From NCBI RefSeq assembly GCF_036669915.1, contig NC_089315.1, positions 2,471,953 to 2,535,952 of the forward strand: DNA of 64,000 nt, in the 5' to 3' direction. The notes beneath the pieces were generated by a model. That model made no database searches, was not told the DNA's origin, and saw nothing but the letters and a program-made list of their open reading frames with translations. This document shows positions 774-39,249 of this stretch, piece by piece (position 1 is the stretch's first letter; each line of letters starts with the position of its first letter). The position numbers were made by a program, and so were the translations under genes. Source of the DNA: Pocillopora verrucosa (taxonomy: Eukaryota > Cnidaria > Anthozoa > Scleractinia > Pocilloporidae).

Positions 774-1883
774 TCAATTTTCGAAGGACGATACGGATCG
801 GAGTCGGACACCGTTTTCTAGTTCTGGAATCTCGGAAGTGACAGTGCTTTGTGAAAACGTGGAAAGCCGGCGCAAAGATAAAGCAGGCTCGGCTGGTTTT
901 AAAGCAGGTTTAAGCGAAGTAAACAGATTTCTAAACGTAGCCTTAAAACGATTGTTGCTGAAGGCGTACAAAAAGGGATTAAGCGCTGAATTAAGGTAGC
1001 CCAACCACAACAACGACATGTAAACTTTGCAAGGAAACGACTCTTTCCCTAGAATGGTTTCGACGATGATGAAATAACAGTAAGGCTGCCAACAGAAGAA
1101 AAGCGCCAACAGGAAGGTGGCAGTCGTCTTAGCAGCTTTGACATTCTTGAAATACATCCTTTTTTCTTCTTTAGTAGGTTCCCGGATGGAGGGAAAGCCA
1201 TCTCGTTTGATAAATTGATTGTTTTTGACAGCAATACGGTAAATCAAGATGTAGAAAATGCATGTGATCATTAGCGGAAAAATGATATTGAAAAAAGAGC
1301 TAAGAATGTTGTATTCTTTAGTATAGGGCAGCATGCAGTTGTCTTTATCATCTGGCTCTCCCTTTTCTCTCCAACCCATGAAGACAAAAAGTGCCCATAA
1401 AATGCTGTAAAGCCAGATTACCATGATGACTAGTGAGGCTCTTTTTTGAGTCAGGAATTGTGCGGTCTTAAACCGAGCCAAAGGATCTCTGAGGGTCTTG
1501 TATCGATCCACGCTGATGGCCAAGAGGCTGAAAACCGAAATGGGTATGGTAATAAGATACACAACTTGCCAAATTATACAGAATGCTTCTCCATGATTCC
1601 ATTCAAAATCAATCCTAAAAAGTAACTCAATATCAAACGGCATCACTATGATTGCTGCAAGAAAATCCGAGAGAGCGAGGGACAGAATGAAGAGATCCGT
1701 GGGATTATTGCGGAGATGTCTATTGGCAAGTATTGCGAGACAGACCAACAAGTTTCCAAATACCGCTACAGATGTAATTGCTGTGGCGCAGGCCGAAACG
1801 GGATACGAAAACGTTTGTTCGAAAATGCACGGAGTGTACTCGTCGTGAGGTAAGTTGACAGCGGAGTTATTGTTCATCTTCAC
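774..1883 (-). CDS. Class A GPCR, receptor A1 (intact)
   Basis: An intronless seven-transmembrane receptor of 369 residues, expected at the plasma membrane and coupling to G proteins. Landmarks visible: G43-N44 (TM1), LALSD with D73 (TM2), C102 before TM3 pairing with C183 in the second extracellular loop, DRY at 126-128, W157 (TM4), P203 (TM5), CWQP at 264-267 (TM6) and NPFLY at 302-306 (TM7). The N-terminus has an N-glycosylation sequon (NNS), and the tail is Ser/Thr-rich with basic stretches. Position 3.32 is Tyr109 rather than the Asp that binds amines, so an aminergic ligand is unlikely; the true ligand is unknown. The second ATG, two codons in, could also serve as start. This is the only intact A copy; A2, A3 and A4 are broken. 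It contains the left breakpoint of the tandem duplication, near 942, so its C-terminal tail is unique in the window. Confidence 0.93.
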   Translation of the reverse strand: MKMNNNSAVNLPHDEYTPCIFEQTFSYPVSACATAITSVAVFGNLLVCLAILANRHLRNNPTDLFILSLALSDFLAAIIVMPFDIELLFRIDFEWNHGEAFCIIWQVVYLITIPISVFSLLAISVDRYKTLRDPLARFKTAQFLTQKRASLVIMVIWLYSILWALFVFMGWREKGEPDDKDNCMLPYTKEYNILSSFFNIIFPLMITCIFYILIYRIAVKNNQFIKRDGFPSIREPTKEEKRMYFKNVKAAKTTATFLLALFFCWQPYCYFIIVETILGKESFPCKVYMSLLWLGYLNSALNPFLYAFSNNRFKATFRNLFTSLKPALKPAEPALSLRRLSTFSQSTVTSEIPELENGVRLRSVSSFEN

Positions 1884-4800
1884 TTGGCGGTTCCAACGTT
1901 TAGGCTTTCTTGGGGAATTGGAACAGACTTCTCGTACAGCCAGTCAGTGGTTTTGTGATAACACAGCCTCAAGAGGTTCTTATGCAACGACGTTTCCTTT
2001 TTGGATTTTGGATTACTTTTAACAATTTGACACCAGTGATGGAAACAAGCTAAATATTTGAAGCATCAATAATATATCCAATAGTGCTGATCTGTTCAAC
2101 CGCGATAATTGAGTTTTGGCAGAGTTCACTACTTTTGTTATCATTTTTAGCAACGTCTCGATATCCGTTTGGAGTGACATTGGATGAGTAACTGACACTA
2201 TTATCGGTAAAACATGCACAGCTGTTATCTAACTTACTCGGTGGGAAACGTGACAGCTGCTGTATACAAAAAGGACTGAACTTTAAGCTGTAATCACGTG
2301 AATAGGTCATTCAAATCCGATCTTGGCGTATTCACAAGCGTGTCCTTAATTTACCTCGGCGTTTACCTTGGCATTATTGAGCGATTACATAATTCAATCA
2401 CAAAAACACTTGAAAAATTGTCAAAGAAAATGCTTGTCCTTAAAATAATAGTTCGTATCCGGAGAAATCTTAAGCACAATATAAGCATCACATTTGCAAG
2501 TACATGATTAAGTATCGCGTTATGTCTTATTTTCTAGTTGAGTCCAAAGCATTCGCGTTTTTTTTTTTCAAGAGCTAAAGAGAGATGTTTTTAAATATTT
2601 TTAAAGATTAAAGTTGTAGTGAAATCGCTTTGGTGCGCTTTCCCTTTATTAGGTATTGGCTGGAGATCGTTTCCATCAAAATGGCATAATCGTGTCGGTG
2701 TTTTTCTCTCGCTCACTACAGAGAGGAGACATGTCGGTAAAATGGCAGCTGTAGAAATCCACAACAATTTATCATTTGGGTTGCTTGATTGGCGGATTTA
2801 CCTTTTTCCCGAAAGCGTGTCTGGTCAGAAAGCTGCGGCTTCAGGTCAGGTTTTTTTTACCTATGGAGTTGATTCCTGCCTCTCTTCGCTCCGTCATCAT
2901 TCCTCTTTTTTTAGCATCGCGCAGAATGCCTATTGTTATCCTGTTCTCGCGACATTAACTTACAGTAGAAAAACAATTATAGATCTCTAACATTAACAGC
3001 AAAGCATAATCTGGCGAGCTATGATTGGTCAAAGATTACGAAAGCAATCATATTGATATGCCGTTAATTTTAGAATCTACTTTTTTTTGTGATATAAACT
3101 CATGGTGAGGAAAGGAAGTCGGAAAATGAACAAAGCCACAGCAATATTTCCTGTCAAGCTGTTCCCTTCTTTGAAAAATGTTTGCCCAGAAGGCCGGAGC
3201 TTTTGACACGTTCAATGACTGATACTTGTGCGCTTAGAATATTGACAAATCGTTCAAAATCAGGGGGAAAAGGACGCCGAAATGAAATTCGAGATACCAT
3301 TCTTTCTTCAAAAACAAATTAAACACTTCCTTCTTAGTTTGCCATCATCACTTAAATAAATATATCGTAGTTGAGTGGGAAAGCTAGTTTACTAAACTAT
3401 CTCTTTCAATCAAGTATTAACCTTGTAGGCCAAAGTAACGCTCTTTGTCGTTAGTTGATTAAACCCGCCCTGACTCTCTCCTAAGGCAACTGTGTCCTCA
3501 TAACAAAGCCTTGGGCTTGCACTTATTGGCTACAAAAACCGCATACAACACATACTGTGGGCTTTGCTAGAAATTCGCAGGTTGACCGTCGTTGAGGATA
3601 GGGTTGCATAGAGATGGTTGCTCTCTGATTGGTCGTGGATTACGTCATATCTTGCGATAGTCATCCAGAGCAAGTTGGTCAGTTAATAATGAGGCACATA
3701 TTTTCAAAATAGGCACTGCGTGATCCGCTGATTTTTACATGACGGGGAAAATTAAATGCATTTGATCATACTCATTAGTCTAAGACAAAAATTCGCCATC
3801 GCGAATGTGCCTACAAGTGCTTCAAATATTTTGGTTAAACACGTGTTTCCTTGAACTGGAACGGCTTTGGATTAGCAGTCAGTGCGTTCGAAAAGCATTA
3901 TACATAAGTTTGTAGTATATTGAAACAACGTACACTCTTCTGGGGATTTTTGGATTCTCGTGGGATTGTTAAAGTCAGAGAAAAAGGCCTGACTGACCAC
4001 ACAAAGGAGAAAGAGGCCATGAAAATTAACCTCATCATGACACTCTTACAACTACGGCATTAACCTTCTAAAATGGGGTTAGTAAGCTTTCGCGACTCTC
4101 CAGTACGTGTTTTAGCCTTTCCGCAGTTTGGCTTTTGTGTATTACTTTGAGTGATCTCCCTCTTCTGGAGGAAATGAGGGGCAAATCTTGTATATTTCGC
4201 TCAGCAATTGTTGTTGTGCTATTAAATGCCAGTTTTTTATTTATGACGATTAATTTTAGTCGAGGCACTGACGGTTGATAATGTGGGACATACTAAGGAA
4301 GTCATAAATTAACAAACTGTATGTTTCTGTAATGTTCATATAAATCACAATCATTACTAGAAATTACCTGATTAGAGAACTGTTCTTCCTCCTAATCTTA
4401 CATCACGACGAGGCTTTCGCGGAGAGAGCGGAATGGCAGTCACTGACATTAAGGCCTGCCTCCTCAAGAGCCTTTTTGTACATATATTTCCACTACTCTG
4501 TTGTCAGACTCCTTGGTTAAGTAAATCAGTGTTTATATATCCGTCTTTTTGAAGGTATCAACGCTGAATAATTGGAGAGTAAACACATGACGAAGTACCA
4601 AATTTACCATAATTTTGAGTTTTACTAGGAGAAGCGGGTAGACACTGAACTCTCCTTAGGGAAGATAAATAAGGGATAATTCAATATACATATTGTTGTT
4701 TATTGTTTTCAATATTTCATTTTTATTAAATTTGACTCTCCGAACTTCTATGATTCGAAAAATCTCCTTTTGTAATAAGCGGGCGTTTTTCTAACGTCAC

Positions 4801-5298
4801 ATAAAAGGGAATAAATAGATAAAAGAAACTTGTGCCCTTATTATAAAAAAGAGCTGTTATTAAAATACCTTGAAAACATCGTCTCACTTTACCTCGTGGA
4901 TAAGAAACAATTTCCATTTGAATCACGTTACATGGTATATCCACCAAACGTAATATTTTTGTCAAATACAGGTAGCAATCTACAAAAGGGTAGGCCGATA
5001 TAAGCGAATCTTTTGAGGTTCCCGCTTGGAATACACCACGGTCAAATTTACTCCGTTAAAGCAAATTGGTTGCCCATAGATATAATTTTCTTTTAAGGAG
5101 AATGATGTGTTAGTGGCATCCCACTTTTTTAAATGGAACATTCGAGAGACTGATCGAAATTCGTAGACTGATCCCAAGCTCGAAAACTTACACTCCTTAT
5201 TCTATTTACAAACATGGCGCTATTGATATTGCTGATCCTAACAGTATGCAGGATGAGTATCATACAGGAACTTCGTAGTAAGTCTCCCTCACCACAGA

Positions 5299-5430
5299 GT
5301 CTCTGTGGCTCAGTGGTAGAACATTGGAGCTCCAAGGCTCAACTTGAGTTCCTCATGGGAACTCAGATTTCTTTTTTTGACCCAAGCTCGTGACAAGACG
5401 AAAAACATTTTTCTCTATTTCTTTATCGAG
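5299..5430 (+). mobile_element. tRNA-derived SINE, copy in unit 1
   Basis: The stretch starts with a tRNA-like head containing a good RNA polymerase III A box (TGGCTCAGTGG), followed by a degenerate B-box region (GAGTTCCTC), a T-run near 5371, and a tail containing GCTCGTGACAAGACG. I recognise this head-and-tail arrangement from dispersed coral repeats. It lacks a proper tRNA fold, so it is not a functional tRNA. Equivalent copies sit in units 2 and 3 and were duplicated with the unit. Confidence 0.7.
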
Positions 5431-6636
5431 CTCAAAACTTATCATCTTTTTTATTCGATTTACTAATATCGTACTTGTTTTATTTTTATACCTACTGAGA
5501 TAAATCTAAGTCTGACCGCAGCTTTCTTAAGAATGATAGAGATGGTTCAAATTGGGTTAAGTGAGCCTTCAATAATGTCTCTAACGCACAAGCGATGTCT
5601 GACAACAAGAGTGAGTATCTTGTGAAAGTGCTCCTCAAAGTGAAATGCTTTTACAGTGTAAAGCACCGAATATTTAGATAAATAGAAAGTTTTCCTTGAC
5701 AACGAAATGGTTTCTTAACTCTATATTGGAACGCAGATCGTTCCCCTAGCGACACAAAAAACGTTTACAGTTTCTAGAAATGAGTGTGCAAATACTGTGC
5801 TATTTTTACAACTTAATCCTTATCTTTATATGTTATTTTACCGTCAGCAGAGTCTTGAAGATCTCTAAAGATTGGCTGAAATGCGCTACAGTAATAAGTA
5901 AAAAAAAAAAAAAGCTGGTGAAAATATAATTCATTTACAATTTCAATCCTTCTTTCGTTTACGATACATATGATGAATTCTGAAGCAAAATAGCAAAGAA
6001 ATTCCAAGTGATTCTCTCTGTTTCAAGATATGTTTTATATCAGTCACAGTCACAATTCACTGCTCAAGGTCAATCCTACTAAACTCAATCAAATGAGCTC
6101 TTTCACCACTATGGAGTGTAAATATCTGACGAAAATTTTGTTTAAGGATGCAACGAAACTTTCATTTCGGCTATGATGGCAGAACTACAATCTAGCTTAT
6201 AACTTCATCTTTTGGTTAAGGCTTCTTGAACAAATCAACATCGCCAGATGAAACCACTTATTTCCGTCTTTCCTATTTCAACAACACTTGAAGGAAATAT
6301 TGCAGCTCATAAATTGTTTTAATGGCAAAAAATAACCATGAAACGTCGAGACTACTCCCCAATTATCTTGTGAATTACTTTCGTGCAATTGCTGTCCATG
6401 AAACAAAACTCGAGGAAGTCTTTTCGAGAAAATTTAACCGTTTGTAGCTGTCGTTTGTACTCTCACTTGATCCTTTACTCAATAATTCGCTTTGTATTCA
6501 AGATTGTGTTTTAACGATATTACTTCATCTTGTCTGTGCAATGACGCTAGTCACCAAAATCAGAACCCGTATCATACATTAAGGCCGTTGGTAAAGTATT
6601 CAGTTTCAGTTTCCCGTAAACAAGGTTTACGAATTA

Positions 6637-6771
6637 ACAATTGGTACATATGTCAGCGTTCGTTCATCGAGATATGAAGCACGCGGGAAGTTTGGAGAAC
6701 ACGAAAGATGCCAAACTTCCCGCGTGCTTCATATATCGCCGAACGCACAACTGACGTATGAACCAATTGTT
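6637..6771. mobile_element. Long hairpin (MITE-like) element, unit 1
   Basis: An inverted repeat with a 24-bp perfect inner stem (6672-6695 pairing with 6711-6734) around a 15-base loop. The stem extends outward imperfectly to the AACAATTGG / CCAATTGTT ends. It has no coding capacity, and the fold-back form fits a non-autonomous DNA element. Confidence 0.7.
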
Positions 6772-7439
6772 TTATAACATTTCAATTTTTTTTCTCAAAG
6801 GGATTTGTTTGCTGACGTCATGAGCTTGCCCAATAGGAATATGAAGCACGCTCACGCAATTGAATTTGATTAGACAAATTTACTAGCTATGCTATAAATG
6901 CTTTTAGCAACTTAGTAAATTTTAACAGGAAATATCATAAATCGTGTGTAGCATTATCTTTTCAGATCTCTTAAACACTGCTATTAATCAATTAGAACTT
7001 TTTTCCTCAAAAATCCGTATTTGTCCAAGATTCCTGAAGTTCTATTTCTAAACACCCAGCGGTGGTGATGATAAAATTAAATTGCCGAACACTATATCTT
7101 AAACAAATATTGAGCTTTAGTTGCAGAAAAACAACAGTAACTCAAAATACGCCGGAGATATTTGTCCACCGATTAATGTGTGATTCGGGGGTGACCATGT
7201 AAAGATGAATTAGATGCTAGTCTAAGAGGATTAAGCCATCAAAATTTGAGGCCATTCGTCCACACTAGAGACTATAGCGTGAACTTTCAATTTCTCAATT
7301 AGTTTTAGGAAATCCTTATTTCAAATTTCCTTTCCTAACTGTAAGGATTTACTGTAATCAAGCCACTCTGGGGTATCTTATCATTCAGTTATGGTAGATT
7401 TGAACATGGCCTTGTTGCGACACTGTAGGTATAGTTATT

Positions 7440-7700
7440 AAATCGCGTTTAAGGAGTGGTCATTATTTCCCGCCCGGGGTGGGGTGGAGTTGGGTCGGAG
7501 CATTTTGGTTGTGTTACGTTAAAATTTACCTGATCCTCCCCCTCACTGGCAGTTAATTGCAGTCACTTTAGTATAGTCCCCCCTTTCACACTCTGTTGGC
7601 GAAGACTGATGCCCCCTCCGTTCTCTGTTTTCCTCTCTCCCCTGAAAACCATATCATTACAAATCATCCAAACCCTCCCACCCCCTCCCCACCCCAAACC
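7440..7700. repeat. G/C-skewed dispersed repeat, unit 1
   Basis: A block with a G-rich left part (GGGGTGGGGTGGAGTTGGG) and a C-rich right part (CCCTCCCACCCCCTCCCC). Its interior resembles the separate insertion at 28,190-28,487, sharing CTGATC..CCCCCTC, GGCAGTT and the GCGAAGAC.GAT..C..TCCG segment. It therefore belongs to a dispersed repeat family rather than to a gene. Confidence 0.55.
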
Positions 7701-9073
7701 TCCATTCGGTCGGTAGACAATGACTGCTTCATTAATCGGAAGCATATAAGTTACGGCCACGGTAAACACCGGCGTATAATGAGCCGCGCGTCTTTGTCCA
7801 AAATTTTTACAATGAATCAGGGTTGCAGATTATCAGCGAGAAAATCAGGAAGTCCCGCCATGATATATGTTTCTGGTTTATCGATACGTGAAAACAAGGA
7901 ATTGCAGTAATATGTCGATCACAACCTCGTTACTTTATTTTCAACATGTCCTTTATAAAAACGCTTGTGACAAACCTGTACTTACCCAAAATTGTGTTAA
8001 TAGCAAAAACGGGCGAAGCAGCCTTTATGTAAAGGCTAATGGCTATGACTAGACTAAACTGTGCGTTTTAACATGCCAGCTTTTCAACATTTCAAATTTT
8101 ATTGCTAAACTGAGCCAATGAAACAAAAGCAGCTAAAATTATTAGGCGATGAGATAAAGATAGCTATTCAATGACGACCAAGAAAAAATAGCTGTGGCTG
8201 TGAAAAAAGATCTTTAGTAAACAAGGTATCTAGCTTTAGCTTGGTAAGCAAAACAAACAAAAAATATAAAGCAGGTGATTTCAGATCAGTCCGAATTGTG
8301 TTTCGTATAGTCCAGTCACAAGCAGAAAGCCTGTGAATATATGTATTATGTACTGAATATTTGAATTATGTTTTAAGAGAACGTCAGCAGTTGACATTCT
8401 CTTGATAGATATAAAACCAAGATTTGTAACATTTGATCTCTTTGTTTTTGCAATTTTGTAAGTCAATTTTTTTCGAATTAAACATGTTTGCCCATATCTG
8501 ATAACCTCCAATATTTTGTAGAGGTTTATGTCTTACAGATATAATACTGAGACCACACGTCACTTCACCTACACTATCTCCATGTTCTACTGATTATGCA
8601 TCCCTAACTTCAATTTTCTGTCCCGATAATTTCAAGGATAAAGCACCACATCAATTTCAAACAAAATCTTGGTAAGCTCAGAAAATTTACATATAATATG
8701 TTCTCGCTAGATAGAGCTTCAATGGTCCTCTCAAAGTCCATCACGCTAATAATACATTTTTGCCATCAAATCTCTGAGAGTTACATGTCAAGTGACTCCT
8801 ACCGCAAACATAACTTATGATTACCGCTATTGCTTAAGCAGATACATTGCAATGTGATTATGTACCAAATGCATATGTTGTTATTACGTGACGGATCTAT
8901 ATAAGTGCTTAGGAAAATTCTTATTTGTAATGTAGTTGCTTTACAATATTCAAATTAAGAGCTTCGCAATAATGCAACAATATAATGTCTGTTGGTAAAT
9001 CATATTCAAATAACCCAGCCTTTTTAACCAAAGATTCTAGATCTTAAATTACCTCCTTGAGTTCTCACCACAG

Positions 9074-10198
9074 CTACCTCTCTGCCGCAGGCACTGATTC
9101 AAAAACTGAATCTTCATAATAGGATATGGATCGGAGACGGACACCGCTTCCCAGCTCCGGAATATCAGAGGTGACAGTACTTTGTGAAAACGTAGAGAGC
9201 CGGGGAAACAATGTGCACGGTTCAGCCCGTTTTACAGCTGGTTTACGCTTTTTATAAACAGCCTTAAAACTTTTGTTGGAAAAGGCAAAAAGAAACGGAT
9301 TAAGTGCTGAGTTAAGGTAACCGAACATTAATAACACTAGGGAAACCTCGTGAGGAAACGATTCCCAGTTTTCGCTGTCAATAGCACTAGAAGTGACAAA
9401 ATAAAAGTAAGGTTGCCAGAATAACAGCGCCAAAACGAACTTTGAAGTCGTCTTAGCCGCTTTGACATTTCTCAAATACACCTTTTTTTCATCCTTGGAG
9501 GGCTGCCGCATCGAAGGAAAGGTGCCTCGTTTGATGGATCGATTGTTCTTGACAGCAATGCGATATATGAGGACGTAAAAAAAGCATGTGATCATCAGCG
9601 GAAGAATATAATTAAGGAAGGACGAAACAAGGGCAAAGTTCTTTGTGTATGGCGGTATGCAGATGCCCTCATCATATGCTTCTCCTTCCTCTCGCCAACG
9701 CATGAAGACAAAAAACGGCCATAGTGAGCAATACAGCCAGATGATCGCTATGACAATTCGAGCTCTGGTTTGGGTCATGAACTGTGATTTCTTAAACCGC
9801 GACAAAGGATCACTGAGGGTTTTATATCGATCCACACTGATGGTCAATACGCTGAAAGTCGAGATGGGTACAGAAATCGAGTACACCACCTGCCAAACTA
9901 TGCAGAATGCTCTTCCATGATTCCATGCACCGTTAAGGAAAAGTGATTCTATATCAAACGGTACCACGATCGTTGCCGCGAGAAAATCTGAAAGAGCCAA
10001 GGAAAAAATGAAAAGATTCGTGGGATTGTGGCGGAGATGCCGGTTAGCAAGTATTGCGAAACAGACCAAGAAGTTTCCAAAGACCGCCACCACTGTGATA
10101 ACTATGTAACAGGCTGCAACAGGATACGAAAACTCTGGTCTGAAACCAAAGAAAACGTCTTCGTCGGTGGACGGATCTGCAGCGGAACTGTTGTTCAT
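9074..10198 (-). CDS. Class A GPCR, receptor B1
   Basis: An intronless seven-helix receptor of 374 residues, clearly paralogous to A1 and D. It begins MNNSSAADPSTDED with N-glycosylation sequons and keeps GN in TM1, LALSD in TM2, the TM3 and loop-2 cysteines, SVDRYKTL after TM3, and NSALNPFLF in TM7. The residue 18 before the DRY arginine is Tyr, not the aminergic Asp. TM6 is odd: it reads ALLFWQPY where B2 reads ALFFCWQPY, so one codon and the CWxP cysteine are missing, which may shift the helix register. The Ser-rich tail shares LSTFSQSTVTS with A1. The frame is otherwise undisturbed. It could be functional or in early decay. Confidence 0.88.
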   Translation of the reverse strand: MNNSSAADPSTDEDVFFGFRPEFSYPVAACYIVITVVAVFGNFLVCFAILANRHLRHNPTNLFIFSLALSDFLAATIVVPFDIESLFLNGAWNHGRAFCIVWQVVYSISVPISTFSVLTISVDRYKTLSDPLSRFKKSQFMTQTRARIVIAIIWLYCSLWPFFVFMRWREEGEAYDEGICIPPYTKNFALVSSFLNYILPLMITCFFYVLIYRIAVKNNRSIKRGTFPSMRQPSKDEKKVYLRNVKAAKTTSKFVLALLFWQPYFYFVTSSAIDSENWESFPHEVSLVLLMFGYLNSALNPFLFAFSNKSFKAVYKKRKPAVKRAEPCTLFPRLSTFSQSTVTSDIPELGSGVRLRSISYYEDSVFESVPAAER

Positions 10199-11564
10199 TC
10201 TTAAGAGGCTGTTCTGGAACGTAAATATCTTGCGGCTCTAGGTTGTAAAGAATTGAACTCAAACTTTTCCCGTAGCTTACTGGAGTTTTCTACCTTTGTA
10301 ACGCACCGGTCACTGCAGTATTCGATTTGCTCAACACAATAAAGCGCCGAAAGAAATTGATCATCGGCCGTCTCTTACAGCTTGTGATATTTTAAGGTTT
10401 TATTTAACCAGTGGCACTTGATTTTGGCAGAGTTTACCATACTCAATATCACTCTGACGTCTCCTTATTTACTGAAATTGCAAAAAGAAACCTAGAATTT
10501 TCGATGACTATATCATTATGAAAAACTGACAGATTCAAATTGAACCAGACATTTTAAAAGATGTATGGTTCAATTTCAATGCGGCTTAAAAGCTCCAATG
10601 ACTTGGGTTAGATTTTCGTCTGCAACCAAGTGATATAACTGAGCCACAATAAAATATGACAAAAACGATAATAATAAGGAAACTTCTAAAAATAACTCTT
10701 CGGGCTTAAAAAAAGGGATATTGCGTGAAATTTAAAATCTTGAAATATCTGAAACAATACTAACACAGAAATATTCATTATATTGTTACGTCTTATTTGG
10801 TTGAATTCACACTCGATATTTCACACATGCTAAAAGATTATATTTTCCAGAGAATAATGATTGAGTTGACATAATGCATTGTCTTGTATACTGGGCGGAG
10901 AGTTTTCCATCAAAATATCATTGTCGTGTTAAATCATCTAATGCAGTTCCCAATTATTTCCTAAATTAAAGTTAAGTATTATAGAACGTTGACCGGGAAA
11001 ACTTCTTTAAAATTTCTCAGTTTCTTTACAAAAGCATACATGTTGATCGGTCTGAGTCAATTTGGCAAACTTCAGCTCATCCTTTAGATGACATTTAGTG
11101 AAGTCTTTGTGATAAAAACATGTCGAAATCATTTCACCTTCACATACAGTATAGCTATAACCTATTTCATAAAACCCTAAAGGTCAACTTGGTAAGAAAT
11201 TATCTATCTGGAAGCAGAGTGGTCGCGCTGATAGGGAACTGGGTCTATATCCTCTCATCCTGCATTTCATCAGAAATGATTTTGGTTGAGGTGAGTTCTG
11301 CATCTGCTCGTCAGCTGTGCCCTGTAAAACACCTTTTAGTATGAATTTAAACAGTTGGATTTTTCTCATGTAATATCTTTTTCGTTGTTTGCTTACATCC
11401 AACCTTAAAGATCCCTCTGATTTAAGTTTGGAGAGTGGTCTTCTAAGCTCTTTGTCAACATTCGCTCTTCTGAGAAAACGAACAGCTATAACTAAGAAGT
11501 TTAGGTTGAAACTATACTGTTTTAGTATCGTGTTAAATCTAGCAAGTTCAGTGACATTTGAATC
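10199..11564. other. Spacer between B1 and C1, no gene recognised
   Basis: AT-rich noncoding sequence upstream of B1 and downstream of the C remnant. A minus-strand open frame of 72 codons (11,184-11,402) is kept in all three units with few substitutions, but it has no recognisable domain and is too young a duplicate for conservation to mean much. Confidence 0.6.
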
Positions 11565-15800: not shown

Positions 15801-16218
15801 ACTTTACCTCGTGGATAAGAAACAATTTCCATTTGAATCACGTTACATGGTATATCCACCAAATGTAATATTTTTGTCAAATACAGGTAGCAATCTACAA
15901 AAGGGTAGGCCGATATAAGCGAATCTTTTGAGGTTCCCGCTTGGATTACACCATGGTGAAACTTACTCCGTTAAAGCAAATTGGTTGCCCATAGATATAA
16001 TTTTCTTTTAAGGAGAATGATGTGTTAGTGGCATCCCACTTTTTTAAATGGAACATTCGAGAATGCTTAAGAGGTTGAAATTCGTAGACTGATCCCAAGC
16101 TCGAAAACTTACACTCCTTATTCTATTTACAAACATGACTCTATCGACATTGCTGATCCAAACAGTATGCAGGATGAGTGTCATACATGAACTTCCTAGT
16201 AAGTCTCCCTCACCACAG

Positions 16219-26415: not shown

Positions 26416-26420
26416 GCTTT

Positions 26421-28189: not shown

Positions 28190-28487
28190 TGTTGATACAG
28201 TCTGATCGCCCTAATTTGATTGCAAAACCTATTTTCCAGTCGACCCTGCCAAGGAACCAGCCTTTACTTATCATTTAGAGGGGGGGGGGGGGGGGGGGGC
28301 AGAAGTTACCTTATTCGATAAGGCTCTGATCTTGCCCCCTCTCATTGGCAGTTTATTGGGAGTCAATTTTCTTTAGTCCCTCAGTTATACTCGTTGAGCG
28401 AAGACAGATCCCTCTCCGTTTCCCCTAAAGACCGCGTGATCTTCTGCCCCCCCCCCCCCCCAGGCAATAAACGATACCCGGTTCCTT
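28190..28487. mobile_element. Insertion with G-tract and C-tract arms, unit 3 only
   Basis: About 0.3 kb that interrupts the sequence reading GGAACGGCTTTGGATTAGCAG in unit 1. It contains a run of 20 G (28,280-28,299) followed by CAGAAG and, facing it, CTTCTG followed by 15 C (28,447-28,461), with AAGGAACC and GGTTCCTT outside them. The layout is inverted-repeat. The interior is related to the 7440-7700 block, which suggests a mobile repeat family. Confidence 0.65.
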
Positions 28488-29918
28488 AGCAGTCAGTGCG
28501 TTCGAAAAGCATTATACATAAGTTTGTACTATATTGAAACAACGTACACTCTTCTGGGGATTTTCGGATTCTCGTGGGATTGTAAAAGTCAGAGAAAAAG
28601 GCCTGACTAACCACACAAAGGAAAAAGAGGCCAGGAAAATTAACCTCATCATGACACTCTTACAACTACAGCATTAACCTTCTAAAATGGGGTTAGTAAG
28701 CTTTCGCGACTCTCCAGTAGGTGTTTTAGCCTTTCCGTAGTTTGGCTGTTGTGTATTACTTTGAGTGATCTCCTTCTTTTGGGGGAAATGAGGTGCGAAT
28801 CTTGTATATTTCGCTCAGCAATTGTTGTTGTGCTATTAAATGCCAGTTTTTTTTTTATGACGATTAATTTTAGTCTAGGCACTGACGGTTGATAATGTGG
28901 GACATACTAAGGAAGTCATAAATTAACAAACTGTATGTTTCTGTAATGTTCATATAAATCACAATCATTACTAGAAATTACCTGATTAGAGAACTCTTCT
29001 TCCTCCTAATCTTACATCACGACGAGGCTTTCGCGGAGAGAGCGGAATGGCAGTCACTGACACTAAGGCCTACCTCCTCAAGAGCCTTTTTGTACATATA
29101 TTTCCACTACTCTGGTGTCAGACCCCTTGGTTAAGTAAATCAGTGTTTATATATCCGTTTTTTTGAAGGTATCAACGCTGAATAATTGGAGAGTAAAGAC
29201 ATGTCGAAGGACCAAATTTACCATAATTTTGAGTTTTACTAGGAGAAGCGGGTAGACACTGAACTCTCCTTAGGGAAGATAAATAAGGGATAATTCAATA
29301 TACATATTGTTGTTTATTGTTTTCAATATTTCATTTTTACTAAATTTGACTTTCCGAACTTCTATGATTCGAAAAATCTCCTTTGGTATTAAGCGGGCGT
29401 TTTTCTAACGTCACATAAAAGGGAATAAATAGATAAAAGAAACTTGTGCCCTTATTATGAAAAAGAGCTGTTATTAAAATACCTTGAAAACATCGTCTCA
29501 CTTTACCTCGTGGATAAGAAACAATTTCCATTTGAATCACGTTACATGGGTATATTCATTAAATGTAATATTTTTGTCAAATACAGGTAGCAATCTACAA
29601 AAGGGTAGGCCGATATAAGCGAATCTTTTGAGGTTCCCGCTTGGATTACACCACGGTCAAATTTACTCCGTTAAAGCAAATTGGTTGCCCATAGATATAA
29701 TTTTCTTTTAAGGAGAATGATGTGTTAGTGGCATCCCACTTTTTTAAATGGAACATTCGAGAATGCTTAAGAGGTTGAAATTCGTAGACTGATCCCAAGC
29801 TCGAAAACTTACACTCCTTATTCTATTTACAAACATGACGCTATTGATATTGCTGATCCTAACAGTATGCAGGATGAGTGTCATACCAGAACTTCGTAGT
29901 AAGTCTCCCTCACCACAG

Positions 29919-30050
29919 AGTCTCTGTGGCTCAGTGGTAGAGCATTGGAGCTCCAAGGCTCAACTTGAGTTCCTCATGGGAACTCAGATTTCTTTTTTTG
30001 ACCCACGCTCGTGACAAGACGAAAAACATTTTTCTCTATTTCTTTATCGA
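29919..30050 (+). mobile_element. tRNA-derived SINE, copy in unit 3
   Basis: Third duplicate of the element at 5299, with an intact A box region and the CCCACGCTCGTGACAAGACG tail. Confidence 0.7.
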
Positions 30051-31318
30051 GCTCAAAACTTATCATCTTTTTTATTCGATTTACTAATATAAAACAAGTA
30101 CGATGATCGTACTTGTTTTATTTTTATTCCTACTGAGACAAATCTAAGTCTGACCGCAGCTTTCTTAAGAATGATGCAGATGGTTCAAATTGGGTTAAGT
30201 GAGCCTTCAATAATGTCTCTAACGCACAAGCGATGTCGGACAACAAGAGTGAGTATCTTGTGCAAAGCTACAACAATAATGGATTATGATTTGAACTTGG
30301 CCTACATCAAGTGCTCCTCAAACTGAAATGCTTTTACAGTGTAAAGTACCGAATATTGAGATAAATATAAAGTTTTCCTAGACAACGAAATGGTTTCTTA
30401 ACTCTATATTGGAACGCAGATCGTTCCCCTAGCGACACAAAAAACGTTTACAGTTTCTAGAGATGAGTGTGCAAATACTGTGCTATTTTTACAACTTAAT
30501 CCTTATCTTTATATGTTATTTTCCCGTCAGCAGAGTCTTGAAGATCTCTAAAGATTGGCTGAAATGCGCTACAGTAATAAGTAAAAGAAAAAAAAAGCTG
30601 GTCAAAATATAATTCATTTACAATTTCAATCCTTCTTTCGTTTACGATACATATGATGAATTCTGAAGCAAAATAGCAAAGAAATTCCAAGTGATTCTCT
30701 CTGTTTCAAGATATGTTTTATATCAGTCACAGTCACAATTCACTGCTCAAGGTCAATCCTACTAAACTCAATCAAATGAGCTCTTTCACCACTATGGAGT
30801 GTAAATATCTGACGAAAATTTTGTTTAAGGATGCAACGAAAATTTCATTTCGGCTATGATGGCAGAACTACAATCTAGCTTATAACTTCATCTTTTGGCA
30901 AAGGCTTCTTGAACAAATCAACATCGCCAGATGAAACCACCTTTTTCTGTCTTTCCTATTTCAACAACACTTGAAGGAAATATTGCAACTCATAAATTGT
31001 TTCAATGACAAAAAATAACCATGAAACGTCGAGACTACTCCCCAATTATCTTGTGAATTACTTTCGTGCAATTGCTGTCCATGAAACAAAACTCGAGCAA
31101 GTCTTTTCGAGAGAATTTAACCGTTTGTAGCTGTCGTTTGTACTCTCACTTGACCTTTTACTCAATAATTCGCTTTGTATTCAAGATTGTGTTTTAACGA
31201 TATTACTTCATCTTGTCTGTGCAATGACGCTAGTCACCAAAATCAGAACCCGTATCATACATTAAGGCCGTTGGTAAAATATTCAGTTTCAGTTTCCCGT
31301 AAACAAGGTTTACGAATT

Positions 31319-31453
31319 AACAATTGGTACATATGTCAGCGTTCGTTCATCGAGATATGAAGCACGCAGGAAGTTTGGAGAACACGAAAGATACCAAACT
31401 TCCCGCGTGCTTCGTATATCGCCGAACGCACAACTGACGTATGAACCAATTGT
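31319..31453. mobile_element. Long hairpin (MITE-like) element, unit 3
   Basis: Third duplicate of the hairpin at 6637. The inner stem now has mismatches (CGCAGG facing CCCGCG). Confidence 0.68.
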
Positions 31454-33756
31454 TTTATAACATTTCAATTTTTTTTTCTCAAAGGGATTTGTTTGCTGAC
31501 GTCATGAGCTTGCCCAATAGGAATATGAAGCACGCTCACGCAATTGAATTTGATTAGACAAATTTACTAGCTATGCTATAAATGCTTTTAGCAACTTAAT
31601 AAATTTTAAAAGGAAATATCATAAATCGTGTGTAGCCATTATCTTTTCAGATCTCTTAAACACTGCTATTAATCAATTAGAATTTTTTTCCTCAAAAATC
31701 CGTATTTTTCCAAGATTCCTGAAGTTCTATTTCTAAACACCCAGCGGTGGTGATGATAAAATTAAATTGCCGAACACTATATCTTAAACAAATATTGAGC
31801 TTTAGTTGCAGAAAAACAACAGTAACTCAAAATACACCGGAGATATTTGTCCACCGATTAATGTGTGATTCGGGGATGACCATGTAAAGATGAATTAGAT
31901 GCTAGTCTAAAAGGATTAAGCCATCAAAATTTGAGGCCATTCGTCCACACTAGAGACTATAGCGTGAACTTTCAATTTCTCAATTAGTTTTAGGAAATCC
32001 TTATTTCAAATTTGCTTTCCTAACTGTAAGGATTTACTGTAATCAAGCCACTCTGGGGTATCTTATCATTCAGTTATGGTAGTTTTGAACATGGCCTTGT
32101 TGCGACACAATAGGTATAGTTATTAAATTGCGTTTAAGGAGTGGTCATTATTTCCCGCCCGGGAGTTGGGAGTTGGGTCGGAGCATTTTGGTTGTGTTAC
32201 GTTAAAATTTACCTGATCCTCCCCCTCACTGGCAGTTAATTGCAGTCACTTTAGTATAGTCCCCCCTTTTACACTCTGTTGGCGAAGACTGATGCCCCCT
32301 CCGTTCTCTGTTTTCCTTTCTCCCCTGAAAACCATATCATTACAAATCATCCAAACCCCCCCACCCCCTCCCCACCCCAAACCTCCATTCGGTCGGTAGA
32401 CAATGACTGCTTCATTAATCGGAAGCATATAAGTTACGGCCACGGTAAACACCGGCGTATAATGAGCCGCACGTCTTTGCCCAAAATTTTTACAATGAAT
32501 CAGGGTTGCAGCTTATCAGCGAGAAAATCAGGAAGTCCCGCCATGATATATGTTTCTGGTTTATCGATACGTGAAAACAAGGAATTGCAGTAATATGTCG
32601 ATCACAACCTCGTTACTTTATTTTCAACATGTCCTTTATAAAAACGCTTGTGACAAACCTGTACTTACCCAAAATTGTGTTAATAGCAAAAACGGGCGAA
32701 GAAGCCTTTATGTAAAGGCTAATGGCTATGACTAAACTAAACTGTGCGTTTTAACATGCCAGCTTTTCAACATTTCAAATTTTATTGCTAAACTGAGCCA
32801 ATGAAACAAAAGCGGCTAAAATTATTAGGCGATGAGATAAAGATAGCTATTCAATGACGACCAAGAAAAAATAGCTGTGGCTGTGAAAAAAGATCTTTAG
32901 TAAACAAGGTATCTAGCTTTAGCTTGGTAAGCAAAACAAACAAAAAATATAAAGCAGGTGATTTCAGATCAGTCCGAATTGTGTTTCGTATAGTCCAGTC
33001 ACAAGCAGAAAGCCTGTAAATATATGTATTATGTACTGAATATTTGAATTATGTTTTAAGATAACGTCAGCAGTTGACATTCTCTTGATAAATACAAAAC
33101 TAAGATTTGTAACATTTGATCTCTTTGTTTTTACAATTTTGTAAGTCAAATTTTGTCGAATTAAATATGTTTGCCCATATCTGATAACCTCCAATGTTTT
33201 GTAGAGGTTTATGTCTTACAGATAAAATACTGAGACCACACGTCACTTCACCTACACTATCTCCATGTTCTACTGATTAAGTATCCCTAACTTCAATTTT
33301 CTGTCCCGATAATTTCAAGGATAAAGCACCACATCAATTTCAAACAAAATTTTGGTAAGCTCAGAAAATTTACATATAATATGTTCTCGCTGGATAGAGC
33401 TTCAATGGTCCTCTCAAAGTCCATCGCACTAATAATACATTTTTACCATCAAATCTCTGAGAGTTACATGTCAAGTGATTCCTACCCCAAACATAACTTA
33501 TGATTACCGCTATTGCTTAAGCAGGTACATTGCAATGTGATAATGTACCAAATGCATATGTTGTTATTACGTGACGGATCTATATAAGTGCTTAGGAAAA
33601 TTCTTATTTGTAATGTAGTTGCTTTATAATATTTAAATTAAGAGCTTCGCAATAATGCAACAATATAATGTCTGTTGGTAAATCATATTCAAATAACCCA
33701 GCCTTTTTAACCAAAGATTCTAGATCTTAAATTACCTCCTTGAGTTCTCACTACAG

Positions 33757-34857
33757 CTACCTCTCTGCCGCAGGCACTGATTCAAAAACTGAATCTTCAT
33801 AATAGGATATGGATCGGAGACGGACACCGCTTCCCAGCTCCGGAATATCAGAGGTGACAGTGCTTTGTGAAAAAGTAGAGAGCCGGGGAAACAATGTGCA
33901 CGGTTCAGCCCGTTTTACAGCTGGTTTACGCTTTTTATAAACAGCCTTAAAACTTTTGTTGGAAAAGGCAAAAAGAAACGGATTAAGTGCTGAGTTAAGG
34001 TAACCGAACATTAATAACACTAGGTAAACCTCGTGAGGAAACGATTCCCAGTTTTCGCTGTCAATAGCACTAGCAATGACAAAATAAAAGTAAGGTTGCC
34101 AGAATAACAGCGCCAAAACGAACTTTGAAGTCGTCTTAGCCGCTTTGATATTTCTGAAATACACCTTTTTTTCATCCTTGGAGGGCTGCCGCATCCAAGG
34201 AAAGGTGCCTCGTTTGGTGGATCGATTGTTCTTGACAGCAATGCGATATATGAGGACGTAAAAAAAGCATGTGATCATCAGCGGAAGAATAACATTAAGG
34301 AAGGACGAAATAAGGATAAAGTTCTTTGTGTATGGCAGTATGCAGATGCCATCATCATCTGCTTCTCCTTCCTCTCGCCAACCCATGAGGACAAAAAACG
34401 GCCATAGTGGGCAATACAGCCAGATGATCGCTATGACAATTCGAGCTCTGGTTTGGGTCATGAACTGTGATTTCTTAAACCGCGACAAAGGATCACTGAG
34501 GGTTTTATATCGATCCACAGTGATGGTCAATAGGCTGAAAGTCGAGATGGGTACAGTACTCAGGTACACCACCTGCCAAACTATGCAGAATGCTCTTCCA
34601 TGATTCCATGCACCGTCAAGGAAAAGTGATTCTATATCAAACGGTACCACGATCGTTGGCGCGAGAAAATCTGAAAGAGCCAAGGAAAAAATGAAAAGAT
34701 TCTTGGGATTGCGGCGGAGATGCCGGTTAGCAAGTATTGCGAAACAGACCAAGAAGTTTCCAAAGACCGCCAACACTGTGATAACTATGTAACAGGCTGC
34801 AACAGGATACGAAAACTCTGGTCTGAAACCAAAGAAAACAGCGGAACTGTTGTTCAT
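33757..34857 (-). CDS. Class A GPCR, receptor B3
   Basis: A B-type receptor of 366 residues with all seven helices. Compared with B1, an in-frame 24-base deletion removes ADPSTDED just after MNNSSA. TM6 has the same one-codon loss as B1 (ALLFWQPY), whereas loop 2 reads CILPYTKN as in B2, so the gene is a patchwork. DRY (TVDRYKTL), the extracellular cysteines and NPFLF are present. TM2 ends SDFLAP, a proline not seen in the other copies. The full tail, as in B1, is retained. Open and possibly functional; ligand unknown. Confidence 0.87.
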   Translation of the reverse strand: MNNSSAVFFGFRPEFSYPVAACYIVITVLAVFGNFLVCFAILANRHLRRNPKNLFIFSLALSDFLAPTIVVPFDIESLFLDGAWNHGRAFCIVWQVVYLSTVPISTFSLLTITVDRYKTLSDPLSRFKKSQFMTQTRARIVIAIIWLYCPLWPFFVLMGWREEGEADDDGICILPYTKNFILISSFLNVILPLMITCFFYVLIYRIAVKNNRSTKRGTFPWMRQPSKDEKKVYFRNIKAAKTTSKFVLALLFWQPYFYFVIASAIDSENWESFPHEVYLVLLMFGYLNSALNPFLFAFSNKSFKAVYKKRKPAVKRAEPCTLFPRLSTFSQSTVTSDIPELGSGVRLRSISYYEDSVFESVPAAER

Positions 34858-36222
34858 TTTTAAGAGGCTGTTCTGGAACGTAAATATGTCGCGGCTCTAG
34901 GTTGTAAAGAATTGAACTCAAACTTTTCCCGTAGCTTACTGGAGTTTTCCACCTTTGTAACGCACCGGTCACTGCAGTGTTCGATTTGCTCAACACAATA
35001 AAGTGCCAAAAGAAATTGATTATCGGCCGTCTCTTACAGCTTGTGATATTTTAAGGTTTTATTTAACCAGTGGCACTTGATTTTGGCAGAGTATACCACA
35101 CTCAATATCACTCTGACGTCTCCTTATTTACTGAAATTGCAAAAAGAAACCTAGAATTTTCGATGACTATATCATTATGAAAAACTGACAGATTCAAATT
35201 GAACCGGACATTTTAAAAGATGTATGGTTCAATTTCAATGCGGCTTAAAAGCTCCAATGACTTGGGTTAGATTTTCGTCTGCAACCAAGTGATATAACTG
35301 AGCTACAATAAAATATGACAAAAACGATAATAATGAGGAAACTTCAAAAAATAACTCTTCGGGCTTAAAAAAAGGAATATTGCGTGAAATTTAAAATCTT
35401 GAAATATCTGAAACAATACTGACACAGAAATATTCATTATATTGTTACGTCTTATTTGGTTGAATTCACACTCGATATTTTACACATGCTAAAAGATTAT
35501 ATTTTCCAGAGAATAATGATTGAGTTGACATAATGCATTGTCTTGTATACTGGGCGGAGAGTTTTCCATCAAAGTATCATTATCGTGTTAAATCATCTAA
35601 TGCAGTTCCCACTTATTTCCTAAATTAAAGTTAAGTATTATAGAACGTTGACCGGGAAAACTTCACTACATTTCTTAGTTTCCATACAAAAGCATACATA
35701 TTTATCGGTCTGAGTCAATTTGGCAAACTTCAGCTCATCCTTTAGATGACATTTAGTGAAGTCTTTGTCATAAAAACATGTCGAAATCATTTCACCTTCA
35801 CATACAGTATAGCTATAACCTATTTTATAAAACTCTAAAGGTCAACTTGGTAAGAAATTAACTATCTGGAAGCAGAGTGGTCGCGCTGATAGGGAACTGG
35901 GTCTATTTCCTCTCATCCTGCTTTTCATCAGAAATGATTTTGGTTGAGGTGAGTTCTGCATCTGCTCGTCAGCTGTGCCCTGTAAAACACCTTTTAGTAT
36001 GAATTTAAACAGTTGGATTTTTCTCATGTAATATTTTTTTCGTTGTTTGCTTACATCCAACCTTAAAGATCCCTCTGATTTAAGTTTGGAGAGTGGTCTT
36101 CTAAGCTCTTTGTCAACATTCGCTCTGCTGAGAAAACGAACAGCTATAACTAAGAAGTTTAGGTTGAAACTACACTGTTTTAGTATCGTGTTAAATCTAG
36201 CAAGTTCAGTGACATTTGAATC
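34858..36222. other. Spacer between B3 and C3, no gene recognised
   Basis: Noncoding equivalent of 10,199-11,564. Nothing beyond the duplicated background. Confidence 0.6.
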
Positions 36223-36593
36223 CTAAATTGACAGGTGTGATCGATGTTTTAGGGAAGAAAACCTTTTTGCATACACAGCTCTGAAGTTCTTCTTCCGAAA
36301 TACGAACAGAAAGGGATTCAGCGCCAAGTTGAGAAAACCAAACATCAACAGCACCATGTAGACTTCGTGGTCAAACGATGTCCAGTTTTTGCTGGTAATG
36401 GTGTCAGAGACAAGCCAAAGGGCGTATAGCTGCCAGCAGACGAAAATAGCCAACACGAATACCGAGCTCTTTTTGGCTGCCTTGATATTCTTCAGATACA
36501 TCTCTTGTTGTTCATTCGTGAGTTATTCGGATGAATTATGCTTTGTATTGCTTAGAGCCTTCTCGTGCTCTCGTATTATGTCATATACTAGAA
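36223..36593 (-). pseudogene. GPCR remnant C3 (TM6-TM7)
   Basis: Counterpart of C1. TM6 reads VCWQLY, losing the CWxP proline, and TM7 reads NLALNPFLF. It joins the A4 remnant at the same junction as C1/A2. Confidence 0.82.
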
Positions 36594-37518
36594 CTTAAAA
36601 CGATTGTTGCTGAAGGCGTACAAAAAGGGATTAAGCGCTGAATTAGGGTAGCCCAACCACAACAACGGCATGTAAACTTTGCAAGGAAACGACTCTTTCC
36701 CTAGAATGGTTTCGACGATGATGAAATAACAGTAAGGCTGCCAACAGGAAGGTGGCAGTCGTCTTGGCAGCTTTGACATTCTTGAAGTACATCCTTTTTT
36801 CTTCTTTAGTAGGTTCCCGGATGGAGGGAAAGCCATCTCGTTTGGTAAATCGATTGTTTTTGACAGCAATACGGTAAATCAAGATGTAGAAAATGCATGT
36901 GATCATTAGCGGAAAAATGATATTGAAAAAAGAGCTAAGAATGTTGTATTCTTTAGTATAGGGCAGCATACAGTTGTCTTTATCATCTGGCTCTCCCTTT
37001 TCTCTACAACCCATGAAGACAAAAAGTGCCCATAAAATGCTGTAGAGCCAGATCACCATGATGACTAGTAAGGCTCTTTATTGAGTCATGAATTGTGCGG
37101 TCTCAAACCGAGCCAAAGGATCTCTGAGGGTCTTGTATCGATCCACGCTGATGGCCAAGAGGCTGAAAATCGAAATGGGTATGGTATTAAGGTACATAAC
37201 TTGCCAAATTATACAGAATGCTTCTCCATGATACCATTCAAAATCAATCCTGAAAAGTAACTCAATGTCAAACGGCATCACTACGATTGCTGCAAGAAAA
37301 TCCGAGAGAGCGAGGAACAGAATGAAGAGATTCGTCGGATTATTGCGGAGATGTCTATTGGCAAGTATTGCGAGACAGACCAATAAGTTTCCAAAGACCG
37401 CTACAGATGTAATTGTTGTGGCGCAGGCCGAAACGGGATACGAAAACATTTGTTCGAAAATGCACGGAGTGTATTCGTCGTGAGGTGAGTTGACCGCGGA
37501 GTTATTGTTCATCTTCAC
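36594..37518 (-). pseudogene. GPCR pseudogene A4
   Basis: A copy of A1 with the same TAA as A2 after FMTQ (37,078-37,080). A 17-base deletion near 36,746, lying between two GCCAACAG repeats, removes the start of TM6 and shifts the frame. The conserved Trp after FMG is Cys. The loop-2 stop of A2 is absent here, so A2 and A4 share one ancestral lesion and then decayed separately. Confidence 0.92.
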
Positions 37519-39249
37519 TTGGCGGTTCTAACGCTTAAACTTTCTTAGGGAATTGGAACAAACTTCTCGTGCGGCCATTCAGTGGTTTTGTAATAACACA
37601 GCCTAGCGAGGTTCTTATGCAACGACGTTTCCTTGTATTTTGGATTACTTTAAACAATTTGACACCAGTGATGGAAACAAGCTAAATATTTGAAGCGTCA
37701 ATAATATATCCAATAGTGCTGGTCTGTTCAACCGTGATAATTGAGTTTTGGTAGAGTTCACTACTTTTGTTATCATTTTTAGCTATGTCTCGACATCCGT
37801 TTGGAGTGACATTGGATGAGCAACTGACACTATTATCGGTAAAACATGCACAGCTGTTATCTAACTTACTCGGTGGGGAAACGTGATAGCTGCTGTATAC
37901 AAAAAGGACTGTAAACTTAAAGCTGTAATCACGTGTAAAATGTCATTCAAATCCGATCTTGGCGTATTCACAAGCGTGTCCTTAATTTACCTTGGCGTTT
38001 ACCTTGGCATGATTGAGCGAGTACATAATTCAATCACAAAAACACTTGAAAAATTGTCGAAGAAAATACTTGTCCTTAAATAATAGTTAGCACCTGGAGA
38101 AATCTTGAACACAATGTAAACATTACATTTGCAAGTACATGATTTAGTATCGCGTTATGTCATATTTCCTAGTTGAGTCCAAAGCATTCGCGTTTTTTTT
38201 TTTTAAGAGCTAAGAAGAGATGTTTTTTTTTTAAAATATTTTTAAAGATTAAAGTTGTAGTGAAATCGCTTTGGTGCGCTTTCTTTTTTTAGGTGTTGGC
38301 TGAAGATCGTTTCCATCAAATTAAAATGGCATAATCGTGTCGGTGTTTTTCTCTCGCTCACTACAAAGAGGAGGCATGTCGGTAAAGTGGCAGCTGAAGA
38401 AATCCACAACAATTTATTATTTTGGTTGCTTAATTAACTGGCAGATTTACCTTTTTCTCGAAAGCGTGTCTGGTCAGAAAGCTGCGGCTTCAGGTCAGGT
38501 TTTTTTTACCTATGGAGTTGATTCCTGCCTCTCTTCGCTCCGTCATCATTCCTCTTTTTTTAGCATCGCGCAGAATGCCTATTGTTATCCTGTTCTCGCG
38601 ACATTAACTTACAGTAGAAAAACAATTATAGATCTGTAATATTAGCAGCAAAGCGTAATCTGGAGAGCTTTGATTGGTCAAAGATTACGAAAGCAATCAT
38701 ATCGATATGCCGTTAATTTTAGAATCTGCTTTTTTTGTGATATAAACTCATGGTGGGGAGAGGAGGTCGGAAAATGAACAAAGCCACAGCAATATTTCCT
38801 GTTAAGCCGTTCCCTCCGGCCTTCTGGGAAAACACTTTTCAAAGAAGCTTTTGACATGTTCAATGACTGATACTTGTGTGCCTAGGATGTTGACAAACCG
38901 TTCAAAATCGGGGGAAAAGGACGCCGAAATGAAATTCGAGATACCATTCTTTCTTCAAAAACAAATTAAACACTTCCTTCTTAGTTTGCTATCATCACTT
39001 AAATTAATATATCGTAGTCGATTGGGAAAGCTAGTTTACTTAACTAGCTATCTCAATTAAAGATTTACCATGTAGGCGAAAGAAACGCCCTTTGTCGCTA
39101 GTTGATTAGCTCTGACTTCCTCCTGAGGCAACTGTGTCCTCATTACAAAGCCTTGGGCTCGCACTTATTGGCTACAAAAACCGCATACAGCACGTAGTGA
39201 GGGCTTAGCTAGAGATTCGCAGGTCGACCGTCTTTGAGGATAGGGTTTC
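36594..39249. repeat. Tandem unit 4 (partial)
   Basis: Contains only A4 and about 1.7 kb of its upstream sequence. Similarity to unit 1 ends at GAGGATAGGGTT (39,238-39,249; unit 1 about 3594-3605). The SHC promoter follows at once. Confidence 0.85.

Follow-up and report, generated by a model that had tools for sequence, protein, structure and literature searches.

Four head-to-tail blocks of class A receptor genes in an anthozoan genome and the apparent order of their duplication and decay

How did receptor genes that lie side by side come to be in states as different as uninterrupted, open with lesions and heavily deleted? This question is raised by a stretch of 64,000 nucleotides (the window; bases 2,471,953-2,535,952 of contig C4 in an assembly of 353 Mb and 52 contigs), which an initial annotation had read as an array of G protein-coupled receptor (GPCR) genes in birth-and-death turnover. 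The window was joined with 60 kb to its left and 10 kb to its right, and this joined stretch was compared with itself by BLAST; positions to the left of window base 1 are given as negative coordinates in window numbering. The locus is a tandem array of class A GPCR genes, apparently intronless, consisting of four D-B-C-A blocks in an anthozoan, probably a coral, and we assign a probability of about 85% to this reading. The turnover proposed by the initial annotation was borne out, and it can be ordered into events.

The structure of the array was read from the assembled sequence. Four blocks, V0 to V3, with the repeat order D-B-C-A stand head-to-tail from -16966 to 39250. The left stretch is homologous to the window from -16966 onwards, which corresponds to window position 3608. 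When the edges were aligned, the unit start was identical at -16966, 3608 and 14522, and the unit end was identical at 3608, 14522 and 39250; the same joint is repeated head-to-tail and the outer edges of the array match it. The third internal joint, near 28053, was erased by a 238-bp deletion, so that two of the three internal joints are visible. The 3' end of V0 (A1 and its flank) occupies 1..3608, its D0, B0 and C0 lying left of the window between -16966 and 0. Self-comparison and edge alignment placed V1 (B1, the C1 stub and A2, with D deleted) at 3609..14522; it is followed by V2 (D2, B2, the C2 stub and A3) at 14523..28052, whose right joint is the one lost, and V3 (B3, the C3 stub and A4, with D deleted) at 28053..39250, the last position being the right edge of the array. 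The long-repeat pairs within the window were 96.7%, 96.8% and 96.2% identical over 10.9, 9.8 and 9.7 kb, respectively, and are therefore copies far beyond chance. The four tandem units that had been described from the window stand as blocks, but the array begins at -16966 rather than at 942, and its phase is D-B-C-A; position 942, which had been taken as a unit edge, is the edge of a deletion.

The block V0 is referred to below as the founder block. D0 (-11808 to -10702, + strand, 369 residues), B0 (-5936 to -4800, - strand, 379 residues) and C0 (-1718 to -678, - strand, 347 residues) are directly left of the window, beside A1 (774..1877, - strand), which is an apparently intronless open frame of 367 residues matching Pfam 7tm_1 with E=3e-52; none of these genes is interrupted by a stop codon. 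Divergence of V0 from V1-V3 was 9-14% in three stretches of spacer and 6-7% for the 3' portion of C, and V1-V3 differed among themselves by 1.7-4.8% in the spacers; spacer divergence, thus, makes V0 the outgroup block. The inventory given earlier for the window was right: among the A genes one is intact and three are dead, C survives as three stubs, three B genes are open, and there is a single D. D is single in the window, but it is not unique in the array, as D0 sits in the founder block, and the three C stubs likewise have a full-length counterpart there in C0. Beyond V0 lie two more divergent receptors, E2 (-18223 to -17090) and E1 (-23851 to -22748).

Comparison with the founder block accounts for the dead copies of C and A. 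At the C/A joint of V1-V3, sequence corresponding to C0 up to about -1289 is fused to sequence corresponding to A1 from 942. The exact joint can be read in C1/A2 and C3/A4, where it is identical; in C2/A3 an additional small deletion spans it, and the sequence to either side is collinear. About 2.2 kb are missing: ca. 203 codons from the start of C, everything between the two genes, and the end of A, which amounts to 168 nt in A2 and A4. Every C stub and every lost A tail can therefore be traced to one deletion inherited by V1-V3. The joint at 942/11930 was also considered as a tandem-duplication joint; this was rejected, since V0 holds C0 and A1 complete and side by side. The C1 stub (11488..11929; TM5-TM7 part, TM denoting a transmembrane helix), the C2 stub (26004..26420) and the C3 stub (36146..36593), all on the - strand, were 92.3%, 90.4% and 92.6% identical to the corresponding region of C0. 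The three A pseudogenes are on the same strand. A2 (11930..12849) lacks the last 168 nt and carries two in-frame stops and a 16-bp deletion; A4 (36594..37512) lacks the same 168 nt and carries one in-frame stop and a 17-bp deletion, the stop at codon 145 being common to both. A3 (26424..26939) lost its 5' part in a 491-bp deletion as well as its tail, and has further indels and stops, the list of stops being unreliable because the alignment ran across the deleted stretch.

V0 and V2 carry D at matching positions, and V1 and V3 lack a stretch reaching from one TTAA to another, a single TTAA being retained at the scars (7171..7178 in V1 and 31856..31863 in V3). In V2, D2 (18357..19403, + strand) is open over 348 residues, and a 49-bp deletion relative to D0 shifts the frame of its C-tail. 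Taken alone, the window would most naturally suggest that V2 had gained D as one inserted piece, since V1 and V3 have no D at that site. However, V0, which the spacers place outside the other blocks, has D0 at the corresponding site; the idea of D as a transposed insert was rejected on this ground, and we regard such an insertion as scarcely credible. Loss of D from the other blocks is the preferred reading, and a miniature inverted-repeat transposable element (MITE) with TTAA-CCCTTTA-type ends (21251..21474) shares its right end with the right end of the segment absent from V1 and V3. Coral CMITEs, which are piggyBac-like, are described in the accessible text of PMC2872659 as having ends starting with CCCTTT and TTAA insertion sites that are duplicated, with excision at TTAA reported. 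The element found here appears to resemble them in its CCCTTT-type ends and TTAA, and differs, as far as that text goes, in its length (ca. 220 bp against ca. 100 bp) and in the letters of its terminal inverted repeats (PMC2872659). Faulty repair at the MITE end may have removed D, and we give this mechanism an even chance, the alternative being a plain deletion by 4-bp microhomology. Two points count against a role of the TTAA sites and the MITE: of the two blocks that retain D, V0 has the right-hand TTAA intact, the V2 site being mutated, and the mechanism rests on one event. Piggybac-like MITEs are marked by a duplicated TTAA target and by terminal inverted repeats ending in CC[C/T]T; among the seven MITE copies listed, TTAA was found at both ends in two, the others having it at one end or in mutated form, and no empty allele of a MITE insertion was seen among these seven.

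Based on these results, the history of the array would be as described below. The founder block D-B-C-A would have been tandemly duplicated, and in the duplicate one 2.2-kb deletion would have disabled C and A together. The damaged block would then have been multiplied to three copies, among which sequence exchange would have continued. D would have been lost from the V1/V3 lineage by a second deletion with a TTAA site at either end, and the later duplications would, in effect, have multiplied receptor B (three copies, with in-frame or tail lesions) and one D. At the level of sequence, the block structure, the succession of the main events and the lesions can be considered demonstrated, and so can the mosaicism of the blocks: the labels of informative sites fell into 200 runs, the mean after shuffling being 327, and 0 of 5000 shuffles gave a number as low. 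A tract of 1207 bp is identical between V2 (21884..23090) and V3 (32267-33473), suggesting recent conversion or crossing-over. The gene tree argues against this order in one respect, as it groups B0 with B1 and B3 and leaves B2 outside (support 90/76), contrary to the spacers.

Haplotypes placed in tandem by the assembly were the artefact feared in the initial annotation. The spacers of V1-V3 diverge so little that they are within reach of very divergent alleles, and the identical 1207-bp tract of V2 and V3 would also fit alternative haplotypes of a shorter locus. On the other hand, the divergence of the V0 spacers is far larger, the two visible internal joints equal the outer edges, which the joining of whole haplotypes would not produce, and D is present in V0 and V2 and absent in V1 and V3. 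Besides, a 2.5-kb spacer probe (best 40 of 1558 candidates scored) matched the four blocks, V0 in two pieces, and no fifth full spacer copy was found in the 52 contigs; the remaining matches were to one dispersed repeat within the probe only. The joints and edges, the spacer divergence and the spacer probe, thus, lead us to largely reject the artefact, which we consider very unlikely. The copy number of the younger blocks V1-V3 may nevertheless be wrong in the assembly. Copies elsewhere in the genome are known from searches with 7tm_1, A1 and the spacer, in which only the best candidates were scored. The dispersed repeat, ca. 280 bp long, lies in the unit spacer (window ca. 5174-5469) and occurs in at least 35 other places at 77-81% identity. 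A self-inverted stretch of ca. 136 bp is present in the spacer of each younger unit (6636-6771, 17556-17693 and 31319-31454); V0 has no counterpart of 6634-6895, which would fit the insertion of a palindromic element once the founder had branched off.

What has become of receptor B in the damaged blocks is less easily read. The three frames described earlier as open are all open, but open does not mean intact, as each bears lesions relative to B0. B1 (9074..10198, - strand, 374 residues) lacks Cys6.47 and four codons after TM7. B2 (23455..24501, - strand, 348 residues) lacks the four codons after TM7 and ends at a stop in the C-tail ca. 26 codons early, and B3 (33757..34857, - strand, 366 residues) lacks Cys6.47, the four codons after TM7 and eight N-terminal codons. 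Among V1-V3, only 8 of the 43 indels shorter than 200 bp outside B were multiples of 3, whereas both of the two within B were. The polarised changes in B amounted to 49 replacements and 14 silent changes; these counts exclude columns gapped in any of B0-B3 and take B0 as the ancestor, which the gene tree and the donor matches of B2 dispute in part. Two of the 49 replacements fell on the 65 columns that are invariant in seven founder-type paralogs and make up 19% of the codons (p=0.002). The ratio of replacement to silent rates (omega) between B0 and each of B1-B3 was 0.38-0.54. Since the reading frame was kept and invariant residues were avoided, B is probably still used, and we infer that its copies continue to be translated and to be constrained to some degree.

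Several observations weigh against continued use of B. All copies from B1 to B3 carry lesions, and omega was not significantly below 1 on the branches after the V0 split, the values being 0.52 for B2 (p=0.19), 0.59 for the B1/B3 ancestor (p=0.41), 3.0 for B3 (p=0.24) and 7.3 for B1. In simulations of 3% neutral divergence, chance alone left a frame of 330 codons open in 33% of the runs. In B2, codons 276-291 were A-like at 5 of 6 informative sites, and the sites scored as derived matched A1 at 7/10 and E1 at 10/13, so that the polarity of B2 is partly doubtful; conversion may explain these A-like sites, though the evidence is thin. It is possible, but in our judgement doubtful, that the B copies of V1-V3 are all pseudogenes, open merely by chance. 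The lesions in every copy (the Cys6.47 codon, the tail stop and the deletions after TM7 and at the N-terminus), the pairwise omega of 0.58 to 3.5 among B1-B3, a replacement rate near the spacer divergence and the branch values just given would all fit such decay. This reading is opposed by the lack of any frameshift in B, against 35/43 short indels elsewhere that are not multiples of 3, and by the avoidance of invariant columns noted above. A different reading of the same replacements, which we hold equally tentatively, is positive selection altering ligand binding in the B copies, clearest in B1. The free-ratio omega of the B1 branch had p=0.0095 (ca. 0.05 when allowing for five branches), and a joint B1 and B3 foreground, picked after the data had been seen, gave an omega of 5.1 against 1 (p=0.005), the effect being stronger in the helix bundle alone. 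Between B1 and B3, 28.5 replacement changes were counted against 2.5 silent ones (Fisher p 0.03-0.08, depending on rounding). With region borders and generic residue numbers set from class A anchors after the differences had been seen, the extracellular half held 28/49 replacements (p=0.002 with all codons as the reference, p=0.011 when the reference was restricted to helices and loops), and its replacement change exceeded the flanking noncoding change in each of the three pairs (p=0.00005, 0.016 and 0.0015). The sites changed across the B copies include 3.33, 3.36, 5.39, 6.55 and 7.35. Against selection, the extracellular excess gave p=0.063 under a null weighted by family variability and was not seen in B3 (3/8), and in pairs with B2 silent change was equally or more raised in the extracellular half (0.088), pointing to conversion or an older tract. 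The extracellular enrichment is, thus, weakened as proof of selection on the pocket. In addition, B1 and B3 lack Cys6.47, the substitutions are few, and gene conversion violates the tree model. A conversion donor for the changes in B1 was also sought by counting B1 matches at sites where the donor differs from B0, and none stood out (A1 2/6, C0 5/10, D0 2/9, D2 2/9 and E1 3/8). Selection on B1 is, taken together, suggestive.

As for the receptors themselves, Pfam 7tm_1 (PF00001) matched all seven proteins tested, namely A1, B1, B2, B3, D, the C1 stub and the first part of A2, and A1, B1, B2, B3 and D each form a single open frame of 348-374 codons. The class A residues N1.50, D2.50, C3.25, D-R-Y, W4.50, P5.50, P6.50 and NPxxY/F accompany the 7tm_1 match, and Cys6.47 of the CWxP motif was found in 9 of the 11 proteins tabulated from the array and its closest relatives (A1, B0, B2, C0, D0, D2, E1, E2 and F), being missing in B1 and B3. 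Opsins are marked by Lys7.43; Tyr or Phe stood at this position in all 11. A tail motif, R-R-x-S-T-F-S-Q-S-T followed by I-P-E and V-R-L-x-S, is present in A1, B0 and D0 and weaker in E1 and E2; from its Ser and Thr residues, we take it to be a putative regulatory phosphorylation site.

For these receptors, which the initial annotation took as probably chemosensory or peptide/lipid-sensing, the closest relatives of solved structure among the matches listed were mostly receptors for biogenic amines. The top PDB sequence matches were histamine H2, adrenergic, dopamine D1 and serotonin (5-HT) receptors (best 60 of 760 and of 867), with muscarinic and trace amine-associated receptor (TAAR) entries lower among the matches listed. 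A structure model of B0, of low to medium confidence (mean predicted local distance difference test, pLDDT, 66.5; predicted template modelling score, pTM, 0.67), was a helical bundle, and among its best 50 fold matches the first 16 were beta1-adrenergic receptors, followed by H2 and D1. Despite this likeness to H2, beta-adrenergic and D1 receptors in sequence and fold, the amine anchor is lacking. Asp3.32 is that anchor in biogenic amine receptors, as stated in the accessible text of PMC4695389, and the tabulated proteins have Tyr in 10/11 and Phe in 1/11 (E2), the array Tyr being aligned opposite the Asp of H2. The clade also differs from amine receptors in Pro3.37 and in acidic residues at 2.61/2.63. 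Clade III teleost TAARs are, in the same source, likewise an expanded amine-receptor-like group without Asp3.32, and they differ in having Asp5.42 (PMC4695389); position 5.42 was Ser or Thr in 11/11 of the proteins here, where 2.61/2.63 is the candidate acidic site.

The spread of this signature was examined in the genome, in which the 7tm_1 profile gave at least 150 scored matches. A census of 87 class A proteins was drawn from a tree set of 31, chosen largely by similarity to A1, and 56 of 60 further loci, four being dropped as duplicates; the truncated protein C1_29.11 was left out of both tree and census. Tyr3.32 together with Pro3.37 occurred in 19/87 and Phe3.32 with Pro3.37 in 1/87. Asp2.61 was present in 18 of these 20, and 17 of the 18 had Asp or Glu at 2.63. 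Asp3.32 was found in 8/87, and outside the signature one other protein had Pro3.37 and one other Tyr3.32. All 20 signature proteins came from the tree set and formed one group (support 84/81, midpoint root). There is, thus, moderate support for a clade that has Tyr3.32, Pro3.37 and acidic residues at 2.61/2.63 as its hallmarks. Its receptors would bind a small, perhaps cationic, ligand via a pocket without Asp3.32. Asp2.61/Glu2.63 is a candidate substitute anchor for such a ligand on the basis of residue pattern, with the odds clearly against it. It is unlikely, as a joint scenario, that the clade exchanged Asp3.32 for Tyr3.32/Pro3.37 and moved its acidic anchor to TM2, that the damaged block, with two of its four receptors disabled beforehand by one deletion, was multiplied for the sake of B, and that the B copies are being retuned at sites facing the ligand by replacement and by conversion from adjacent A copies, perhaps including dead ones. 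A degraded relative, 44% identical to A1 and with four stops, was observed at C9:1084049-1085008 (L028), on a second contig of chromosome size, and is a remnant of related receptors outside contig C4.

The array is of a kind already known in corals and is unusually legible. In the accessible text of PMC10236652, the rhodopsin-like GPCR domain is the commonest among amplified coral families (34/192 orthogroups). The array resembles the reef-coral GPCR families described there in its tandem duplication, their expansions differing by genus, and the genome sizes are similar (347 Mb for P. cf. effusa against 353 Mb here); as far as that text goes, families are counted there, whereas the present analysis follows a single array through its individual events, with blocks, shared deletions and conversion (PMC10236652). 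In the available portion of PMC11087051, a source that includes deorphanised Nematostella receptors, the class A receptors of cnidarians fall into sub-clusters separate from the amine and peptide receptors of bilaterians. No description of the array or of the Tyr3.32/Pro3.37 signature was found in the open-licence literature at the level of titles and abstract openings. Tandem expansion of orphan GPCRs makes up a large part of coral gene content that has mostly been counted and seldom dissected; this array can be read as ordered events, in which the loss of genes through single deletions, two of them together and afterwards D, is set apart from the retention of B. A1, B0, C0 and D0, together with the pocket positions, are concrete candidates for ligand finding, in a clade that a homology search would label amine receptors without the amine anchor being present.

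The surroundings were also surveyed. Rfam at the gathering threshold gave no matches in the window, NCBIfam none for A1 and B0, and Pfam none for seven small open reading frames of the window nor for 54183-54527. The cnidarian origin suggested by the initial annotation fits 74 matches to the green fluorescent protein family in two clusters on contig C1 (ca. 0.67-0.88 Mb and 28.36-28.79 Mb), many of them as separate exons, which together represent a large fluorescent-protein gene array. Immediately right of the array edge, a 33-bp repeat is present in two copies at 39265-39331, and an SH2-domain exon lies ca. 8 kb to the right of the array (46940-47344, + strand). At 62138-63100 (+ strand), an apparently intronless open frame of 320 residues carries RNA recognition motif (RRM) domains and a tail rich in Arg and Ser, of the SR splicing factor type.

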